A DNA stretch of 64,000 bases from an uncultured Nitrospira sp. (GTDB lineage: Bacteria > Nitrospirota > Nitrospiria > Nitrospirales > Nitrospiraceae): positions 124,001 to 188,000 of the forward strand of contig CABVRZ010000004.1 in the NCBI GenBank assembly GCA_902500775.1, in the 5' to 3' direction. The notes under the pieces are model-generated. The model searched no databases and was not told the origin of the DNA. It was given only the letters and a program-made list of their open reading frames with translations. Both the position numbers and the translations under genes were made by a program. Below, piece by piece: positions 34,295 through 36,189 of this stretch. Positions within the stretch are counted from its first letter, which is position 1. Each line of letters starts with the position of its first letter.

Positions 34295-34759
34295 AGAGCA
34301 CCTCCTTGTGTGAAACCTCCTATGTTCCGTAGAAGAGTGTTTGGACCGTCCTCTATGCTTGCTACACGATAATAAGTAAAACGTTCCTTCGCCATCGCCC
34401 GAAAGAGTGAATTTGCGGCTACACCGAATGGGTGAAGTGGCCGGTACGCACAGGACGGATCAATGGGACTTGAGGTAGATCAGAGTAGCTCCCACGCGAC
34501 CCAAACCGAACGACCACTGAACTGAAAAGTAGCTGTTCAGCGTTGGTGTGTGCAGTGCCTGGGGGTGTGAGTCTTCTCAAAAAGGTGGCCTTATGCCGAC
34601 TCTCACAAGAACCCATGAGAAATGGTCCCGTAGACGCGATTCATTGAAACGATAGCAGCCATGGCGTATGGTTTGCGAATAGTAACGGTGTGTTACACGG
34701 ACAGGAATTGGAAGATCCGGTCCGTATGCGGATCCATCTAAACATAGTTGAGTGCACAG
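34295..34759. other. Gene-free stretch left of the cassette-like region
   Basis: No supported gene. Presumably it contains the promoter of the 42-residue protein gene near its left side. At its right end GTTGAGT (34747-34753) fits the attC R' core pattern GTTRRRY, but no matching left core was found. Confidence 0.4.
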
Positions 34760-35191
34760 ATGCTCCATTCGTGGGCGGACGCATTGGCTAACGTAAAGGT
34801 TCGCATCACGCTGCTATTACTGGGGGTCCTTGCAACCGTGGCATTGGGGCCGATATCTATTTTCGGTACCTACATGCTGGTTACGTCGTTTGTGTCGTAC
34901 GCCCAAGGAGAGTCCATGTTTCTTGATTGGAGCGTGGTGGGTACGGGAGGTGTTATTGCAATCACAGCCGCCTGGGTTCGTCTTCTTGTGCCACGCCGAT
35001 ACTTCCAAGAACGCGCAATTCTCAAATGGGCTACCGCGGTAGGTTTAGCTCTCGGCCTAGTCCTCGCCTGCCTACTCCTTTTCAACCCTGCGATGGCGTG
35101 GCTGGTTGTGCTCACGATCCCCATTGGCGCATTCCTCCTTGGAGCCACGCTCGGTGAGCATGAGCCCCATATTGAGAACCGCAGGCTATAA
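34760..35191 (+). CDS. Four-helix membrane protein of unknown function, probable gene-cassette content
   Basis: The 143-residue protein has four hydrophobic segments (about 14-45, 62-76, 90-108 and 112-130). I do not recognise a family. The ATG at 34760 is used; a TTG four codons upstream is inside a GTTGAGT sequence that resembles an attC core. No good ribosome site is present, which is common in integron cassettes. An attC-like site begins 9 bp after the stop. Confidence 0.55.
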   Translation: MLHSWADALANVKVRITLLLLGVLATVALGPISIFGTYMLVTSFVSYAQGESMFLDWSVVGTGGVIAITAAWVRLLVPRRYFQERAILKWATAVGLALGLVLACLLLFNPAMAWLVVLTIPIGAFLLGATLGEHEPHIENRRL

Positions 35192-35199
35192 AACGGTAC

Positions 35200-35268
35200 G
35201 CCCTAACCCCTCGCTCAACGCGAACGCGCCGCCATTTGGAGGGAGTGCGAGGCACACGCAGGTTACCG
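35200..35268 (+). other. attC-like recombination site 1
   Basis: Left arm GCCCTAACCCCTCGCTC contains an R'' core (CCCTAAC) and an L'' arm; right arm GAGTGCGAGG then, after eight bases, GGTTACC. CCTCGCTC and GAGTGCGAGG pair with two unpaired bases on one side, the extrahelical-base feature that integrases use. The right core GTTACCG departs from GTTRRRY, so the site is degenerate. Confidence 0.55.
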
Positions 35269-35299
35269 GACACGTTCTGGCTATTCAAAGGGTGTTTAT

Positions 35300-35581
35300 A
35301 TGCAACACGTGTTAATCATTCATGAGGTTGAAGCGTATCCGGCATGGAAGGCAATTTTTGATCAGGCAGCTGGTCTGAGAAAGCGGGCCGGAGAAATCAG
35401 CTATCAGTTGCTGCGCTATGAGAACGATGCCAATAAAATCGTCCACTTCTCGGAGTGGGCATCGCTGGAGCAGGCCCGATGTTTCTTCGAATCTTCTGAA
35501 CTGGTCGAAATCCGGAGAAAGGCTGGCGTCAAAGCGCCCGCCTTCATCTACCTGCAAGAGATAGAGCCTGGCGTGCTATAG
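35300..35581 (+). CDS. ABM-fold (antibiotic biosynthesis monooxygenase-like) protein in a cassette
   Basis: A 93-residue protein of the dimeric ferredoxin-like ABM type: VLIIHEVEAYPAWKAIFDQA at the start, a central RYENDANKIVHFSEW, and a last strand AFIYLQEIE. ABM proteins include small monooxygenases and haem-degrading or signal-related enzymes; no substrate is suggested. The gene stands alone between two attC-like sites, the right one starting directly after its stop codon, so it has the form of a single-gene integron cassette. Confidence 0.72.
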   Translation: MQHVLIIHEVEAYPAWKAIFDQAAGLRKRAGEISYQLLRYENDANKIVHFSEWASLEQARCFFESSELVEIRRKAGVKAPAFIYLQEIEPGVL

Positions 35582-35632
35582 GGCTAACCTATCGCTCGAA
35601 AGGAACGCGGCAAGAGTGCGGCGTCGTTAGGC
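35582..35632 (+). other. attC-like recombination site 2
   Basis: GGCTAAC (35582-35588) at the left and GTTAGGC (35626-35632) at the right are inverted core sites with one mismatch. Between them CGCTC and GAGTGCGG act as L''/L' arms. The right core fits GTTRRRY exactly. The next gene starts 6 bases later, as expected for a cassette array. Confidence 0.75.
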
Positions 35633-35638
35633 ATTGGA

Positions 35639-36160
35639 ATGCAGCTCGCCCCTGTCGATGCACAGCGATTCATCCAAGGCTACAAGCTGTTGATGCTTGA
35701 GGTCTTAGGTGAACGGGAAGATCACATTACCGGCAGCGTCGTTCCGTTGCTTGCGAAGGCGCGTGCGAAGCTTGTTGGTAAACCGGCCTTGCTGCGTCAG
35801 GCGATCGCGCAGCTTGAAGCACGACAGGCCAAGCTGGATTGCGGGGTCGTCATGGCCCTAGAAGGGCTCGAAGTGCGGCAATGGGTTTATCTTCGGGACA
35901 CGAAACTTCATTCGATCATGATTGATTGGAACGCAGATCGTGCCTTCGGGGTACTCGGGCTTACCCAGGGACTCCGGGATCTTATCGGCGGCACCGGGGT
36001 AATTATCGAGGCGGGGTTGGTACGCTACTGTGGGCGATATGTGTGTGACGGCATCATTTCGCAAGTGGTGTGGCTCGGCCCAGGATACAGAAGAAGTTGG
36101 AATGAGACATTCAAGGAGATCAAGGCATCAGGACAATTTCATGCGAAAGCCGACGTCTAA
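35639..36160 (+). CDS. Cassette-borne protein of unknown function
   Basis: A 173-residue protein with a helical N-terminal half (QRFIQGYKLLMLEVLGERED onward) and a beta-rich C-terminal half (RQWVYLRDTKLHSIMID). No family is recognised. It starts 6 bp after the attC-like core GTTAGGC, and its TAA stop lies inside the next core-like GTCTAAC (36155-36161), a layout frequent in integron gene cassettes. No ribosome site of note is seen. Confidence 0.68.
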   Translation: MQLAPVDAQRFIQGYKLLMLEVLGEREDHITGSVVPLLAKARAKLVGKPALLRQAIAQLEARQAKLDCGVVMALEGLEVRQWVYLRDTKLHSIMIDWNADRAFGVLGLTQGLRDLIGGTGVIIEAGLVRYCGRYVCDGIISQVVWLGPGYRRSWNETFKEIKASGQFHAKADV

Positions 36161-36189
36161 CAATACTGTCAATCGGATCTCCGTAAGAC
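36155..36189 (+). other. Possible truncated attC site 3
   Basis: GTCTAAC (36155-36161) followed by AATACTGTCAAT matches the left part of an attC; GTAAGAC (36183-36189) is one base off the inverse core GTTAGAC. At 35 bp it is shorter than usual, so the site is likely degenerate or cut. Confidence 0.35.

Follow-up and report, generated by a model that had tools for sequence, protein, structure and literature searches.

A probable old chromosomal integron without an integrase gene beside aat in Nitrospira, and its putative promoter–attI block as a lineage-specific repeat

Introduction

Integrons are usually recognised through an integrase gene (intI) or through clusters of attC sites, and each is viewed as one platform per locus. 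CALINs, which have at least two attC sites and cassettes with no integrase nearby, are known, and two were found in Ca. Nitrospira inopinata with IntegronFinder 2.0 (PMC9024848). The Nitrospira locus described here shares these properties, but it differs in retaining a candidate cassette promoter (Pc) and an attI-like site, both alignable across the lineage. Because IntegronFinder detects no attI outside class 1 (PMC9024848), such platforms would have been missed before.

Several other described systems are close to this locus. Treponema carries 'reverse' chromosomal integrons, and the remnant in T. phagedenis consists of attC sites without intI (PMC3607928). The intI-bearing Nitrospira copies likewise transcribe intI and the cassettes in one direction, with intI running toward attI, whereas they belong to another phylum and occur in genomes with many attI platforms instead of one. 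The accessible part of the report on the Xanthomonas ilvD integrons (PMC12444791) describes a fixed chromosomal place across species, decayed intI, kept cassettes and additional CALINs elsewhere, all of which recall the present case; that part describes no lineage-wide repeated attI platform, and the Nitrospira place adjoins aat.

The delta-attI-type cassettes of class 1 and class 2 integrons (PMC12901181) are array elements whose 3' end is an attI-like site. Nitrospira blocks located inside arrays match them by layout alone, and differ in having a promoter-like pair and no gene; they may be tandem platforms. The block in our sequence is not a cassette of this type, as no attC was seen upstream of it. 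ORF-less promoter cassettes, as far as the accessible text describes them (PMC6557892), are also non-coding units with a promoter role in cassette arrays, but they are ordinary cassettes, whereas the Nitrospira blocks end in an attI-like site.

No report of a lineage-wide repeated, integrase-less attI–promoter platform was found in the open-access literature, and the main novelty is this block as a lineage-specific repeat. Standard search tools would miss scattered platforms without the enzyme. An alignable block exposes many of them in nitrite and comammox oxidisers, an environmentally central group. It offers a direct handle for finding captured genes and dating integrase loss, and lets one ask if a single integrase can serve many attI sites.

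Results and Discussion

The locus and its putative promoter–attI block

The analysed sequence (the window) comprises 64,000 nucleotides, positions 124001 to 188000 of contig C4 of an uncultured Nitrospira sp., whose 4.53-Mb genome is 99.7% complete. At 34.5–36.3 kb, on the chromosome and adjoining aat, lies what is very probably an old integron whose integrase gene was deleted. Its order from 5' to 3' is a promoter-like pair, an attI-type site, three cassettes and a decayed conserved 3' end, all on the plus strand. Comparison with congener genomes showed that the same locus beside aat is occupied in many species. Rfam at gathering scores returned no match in the window.

The left part of the platform is a conserved non-coding segment (34497–34747) that ends at the predicted attI cut, and its matches in many congeners end at about 34749/34750. 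In congeners without the block at this place, homology was lost at about 34501 or 34543. The segment contains a candidate Pc, TTGAAA-17-TATGGT, at 34644–34672. If taken alone, this pair is at chance level in the window. Among 52 block copies, the pair was found at the exact 17-base spacing in 39, and its hexamers rank among the best-conserved columns of the block alignment (A1). The block-wide form TTGAAA-17-TATNNT lies about 80 bases upstream of the attI cut, and by its sequence is a putative cassette promoter.

The attI-like site (34692–34753) reads CTAAACATAG|TTGAGTGC, with the cut at 34747/34748. It includes direct-repeat-like motifs (GTTACACGG at 34692 and GTATGCGG at 34724), an L box CTAAAC at 34738–34743 and an R box GTTGAGT at 34747–34753. 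This order, with a pair of direct-repeat-like motifs followed by an inverted CTAAAC and by GTTRRRY, is the attI1 layout of class 1 integrons. The exact attI motif occurred once in the window against an expectation of 0. Its copies in named genomes were all within Nitrospirota, and one lies in the complete Ca. Nitrospira defluvii genome; three motif-bearing entries labelled 'uncultured Nitrosospira sp. isolate CMX' were counted as mislabelled comammox Nitrospira because their contigs are those of genome G098, which belongs to the same genus.

Aligned block copies end in ...GATCCGGCTCTTATGCGGATCGGCCTAAACATAG|TTRGGC. Over 52 junctions, identity across the 25 bases that lead up to the cut was 82%; from +6 on it was 26%, equal to random. 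GTTRRRY was fully matched at only 27 of the junctions. The motif, this junction profile and a shared position after intI in congeners point to a predicted attI adjoining the first cassette. We read the whole block as a probable Pc plus attI, since copies of it follow the intI stop codon, its layout is attI1-like and TTGAAA-17-TATNNT lies upstream.

Cassettes and their genes

The left flank stopped matching the window at 34747–34755 in nine congeners (G004, G075, G093, G019, G068, G062, G098, G011 and G018), and homology returned at 35272–35275 in six (G004, G028, G011, G093, G098 and G075). The segment 34747–35275 was replaced by differing DNA in G004, G011, G075, G093 and G098, with borders a few bases from the cores. 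Its interior in the window (34756–35271) had no match in the 20 orthologous loci compared. The species-specific DNA between the two homology borders therefore delimits cassette 1 (34748–35274), with the right core GTTCTGGC at 35274. The first-pass annotation had named missing cassette-border variation among relatives as evidence that would overturn its reading; such variation was found for cassette 1, with both borders near cores. The two borders, 34747–34755 and 35272–35275, are consistent with cassette gain and loss at G|TT. A left match ending at the attI cut, homology resuming where the ABM cassette starts and differing first cassettes together argue that cassettes were exchanged by integron recombination.

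Gene 1 (34760–35191) encodes a hydrophobic protein of 143–147 amino acids with no family, starting at ATG 34760 or TTG 34748. Cassette 2 (35275–35626), which begins where homology returns in the six congeners, contains the ABM-domain gene (35300–35581; 93 amino acids; Pfam PF03992, 24.3 bits against a cut-off of 23.1). Cassette 3 (35627–36245) contains gene 3 (35639–36160; 173 amino acids; no family), whose stop codon falls within R'' of the third attC. The short distances between gene starts or stops and cores, as first described, were borne out.

Horizontal gain of unknown genes had been proposed. The ABM gene is not a recent arrival, as it is common to many species together with site 2 and gene 3; only cassette 1 is species-specific. 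Cassettes 2 and 3, shared so widely, are therefore old. Furthermore, block copies at the aat locus cluster by locus and not by genome (6 label changes against a shuffled mean of 12.6; 0 of 500 shuffles), which marks the aat platform as old and inherited. The search for a clean empty target at this locus found none.

Exact excision of gene 3 in G098 was rejected. The junction is not at the core and lies some 14 bases further in, so the loss of gene 3 in G098 and G027 is an ordinary deletion. In G018, about 5 kb of inserted DNA splits gene 3 (L076, contig C1, 7830–12699). In other congeners the ABM gene was also seen at another locus without attC-like sites (L014–L016, L018 and L019); cassette and non-cassette forms of the gene could reveal the origin of the cassette.

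The attC sites and their folding

Three putative attC sites in the window were recognised from their position, their motifs and their orthologs. The decayed attC1 (35201–35281) has R'' CCCTAAC at 35201–35207, L'' CCTCGCTC at 35209–35216, L' GAGTGCGAGG at 35243–35252 and R' GTTCTGGC at 35274–35281. Its right border had been placed 12 bases away, at GTTACC near 35262; homology with six species starts at 35272–35275, at the core given here. The short attC2 (35582–35632) has R'' GGCTAAC at 35582–35588 and R' GTTAGGC at 35626–35632, the latter as originally noted, and its L' arm is apparently lost in all orthologs. The site attC3 (36155–36251), decayed in the window, has R'' GTCTAAC and R' GTCAATG at 36245–36251. 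The TAA of gene 3 lies inside GTCTAAC (36155–36161), in agreement with the first reading.

The unusual left arms shared by the first two sites were also confirmed: the 64-kb window has exactly two instances of SSYTAACNNNTCGCTC, at 35201 and 35582, where 0.02 would be expected, and two occurrences appeared in 0 of 100 shuffles. The first description covered the two attC sites flanking the ABM gene and omitted the third attC and the upstream attI-like site with its candidate promoter.

Folded as single strands, the three window sites gave z values of +0.55 to +1.23, -0.83 and -0.33 against shuffles. Since these folds do not exceed shuffled sequence, hairpin evidence from the source genome alone is weak. 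Orthologous sites and other first-cassette sites fold well. In G093 and G004 the ABM cassette is immediately preceded by a well-formed attC whose L arms pair on either side of a single bulged base. In G028 the orthologous attC3 reached z -4.56, and the window copy is decayed; hairpin features are also present at a site on contig C22 of the source genome (z -2.76). At the attC2 orthologs the stems are preserved, with 87% of cells paired versus 27–51% when slid, and no covariation beyond shuffles was detected at the attC2 and attC3 orthologs. The site attC2 looks like an attC whose L' arm vanished before the species split. A home-made attC scan for R and L complementarity was rejected as evidence, as it gave 42 matches in 279 kb of shuffled sequence.

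Copies of the block and the 3' end of the platform

When 34240–34760 was compared with 79 genus genomes, the block that ends near 34749 came up many times, in many cases with several copies in one genome. The sequence model R1, which represents the block and matched the window copy at 6.8e-33, found it in 69 of the 79 genus genomes, at up to 18 per genome, and in 126 of 197 genomes and 14 of 35 genera across the order. The E-values are rough, but the leading matches are below 1e-20; the weakest matches (e.g. one of 4.5e-8 in the source genome) may be fragments. The source genome has 9 matches. The block is a lineage-specific repeat that mostly stands without intI. On contig C8 of the source genome (L071, 4960–6660), three attI-like blocks lie in a row on one strand with a different gene after each, forming tandem integrase-less platforms.

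The 3' end of the platform is also conserved. In orthologs it reads TTAATGCGACAGGGCTGAGG..., and the sequence after attC3 runs on as GTCAATGCGACAGGGCTGAGGACCG..., as it does after the last attC of many other arrays. The decayed window copy (36246–36300) was read by eye against orthologs and lies below the HMM threshold. In G067 (contig C8), an empty platform of about 400 bases with neither cassette nor intI has attI joined straight to this end, as CTAAACATAG|TTAATGCG (also written CTAAACATAG|TTAATGCGGCAAGGC). This would account for the array 3' end as what stood beside attI originally. The right end of the empty platform lies about 230 bases past the cut and recurs in several species; this end (L112, 1510–1740) lies in sequence that has an inverted repeat in relatives (TGTGCAAT...ATTGCACA). 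Several copies of the 3'-end sequence were also seen about 1.5–2.4 kb apart in L099 (G090, contig C558), most running on as ATGGCAGYCCTCAACCCAAAGC...; noncoding repeats associated with cassette arrays form a mosaic there.

Blocks inside arrays directly after an attC were found in G098, G091, G065 and G088, and could be promoter cassettes ending in attI or tandem platforms. The promoter cassette as their sole account was weakened, as the same 5' sequence forms the 3' end of arrays and of the empty platform, and this common end favours tandem platforms.

These copies bear on an alternative in which the block is itself a cassette that is mobile and has no gene, or a MITE-like, non-autonomous platform still moving, and the aat locus is a landing site and not a dead integron. 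Such movement would account for in-array blocks extending from G|TTAATGCGAC to attI, for as many as 18 copies in one genome and for the empty copy of about 400 bases without intI, and functional delta-attI-type cassettes have been described for class 1 and class 2 integrons (PMC12901181). However, arrays also simply finish in TTAATGCGAC... at their 3' end, neither a target-site duplication nor a clean empty target turned up, and the copy beside aat is old and was inherited with its locus. We consider this alternative unlikely, with appreciable weight.

Integrase genes

No integrase gene had been noted at the locus, and none was present near it, or complete or intact anywhere in the assembly. 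The only IntI trace in the source genome is a relic of about 44 codons on contig C22, in which the Tyr of MIYTHVL is changed to Asp. At that place (L070, 6434–8384), the intI relic is accompanied by an attI block and the well-folding downstream attC, an integron remnant better preserved than that of the window. The tyrosine recombinases on contigs C10 and C34 were rejected as IntI, as their partial TIGR02249 matches fall far below the cut-off and the same kind occurs in all control genomes; they are taken as Xer-type.

In G094 (contig C9), a complete intI was found (TIGR02249, 464 bits; 435-amino-acid frame with ...MIYTHVLHRG...SPLDGM, ending ...MIYTHVLHRGPAGVRSPLDGM), and its stop codon is followed by the block. 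This related copy has the reverse, Treponema-type orientation, with intI transcribed toward attI. Blocks also lie beside intI remnants in G088, G066, G067 and contig C22 of the source genome.

Genes for the enzyme above the family cut-off occur in 8 of the 79 genus genomes, and blocks in 69 of them. This disparity, and G018 with both a full-length intI and the aat-locus integron, would suit an integron that is still active because an integrase acts on it in trans, encoded elsewhere in the cell or arriving by gene transfer. We regard this as improbable for the window, where the attC sites at the locus are decayed and all that the 99.7% complete genome retains is a 44-residue relic in which Asp replaces Tyr.

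A probable old integron that lost its integrase gene

The label CALIN and an integron origin, as first given, agree with the border variation and the missing integrase, and the label undersells a locus with a candidate Pc and attI-like site retained. That the blocks are interspersed noncoding repeats unrelated to integrons, with gene differences due to illegitimate recombination, is very unlikely: the poor folding of the window attC sites, platform parts (TTGGCCG...GACCCAAAGC) that are mosaic repeats with many different continuations, and a gene 3 loss in G098 resembling microhomology deletion fit it, but copies of the block come directly after intI genes and intI remnants, similarity breaks off at the same base pair in unrelated contexts by the dozen, and well-formed attC sites close the first cassettes of other species.

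For the old integron with a deleted integrase gene, the sequence comparisons suggest the following course. An integron integrase would once have joined circular cassettes to attI at 34747/34748, so that the newest cassette sits beside attI and would be read from the putative promoter at 34644–34672. Three cassettes remain, encoding a hydrophobic protein of small size, a protein with the ABM fold and a third, unknown protein, followed past the last attC by the conserved sequence that follows attI in an empty platform. The intI gene would have been deleted afterwards and the attC sites would have drifted, and the cassettes are presumably immobile now unless an integrase is supplied in trans.

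On a wider scale, we tentatively propose, at somewhat less than even confidence, that Nitrospirales may carry a distinct non-autonomous integron family, in which compact integrase-less promoter–attI platforms are dispersed and repeated in tandem through the chromosome and receive their cassettes from rare integrases that work in trans. If true, each genome would have many separate capture sites, not one.

Sequence around the integron

Beyond the integron, 36300–39380 of the window is a segment of about 3 kb with an M64-type peptidase with fungal-lectin-like repeats (36343–38298, minus strand) and a neighbouring small gene. This segment is missing from the orthologous loci compared, where the right flank (39380 on) lies about 40–90 bases past the integron end. 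To the left, a transposase-like gene (IS630-like) at 3008–4066 and a VapBC-like pair (PIN plus AbrB-like) at 32271–32910 were recognised by eye.
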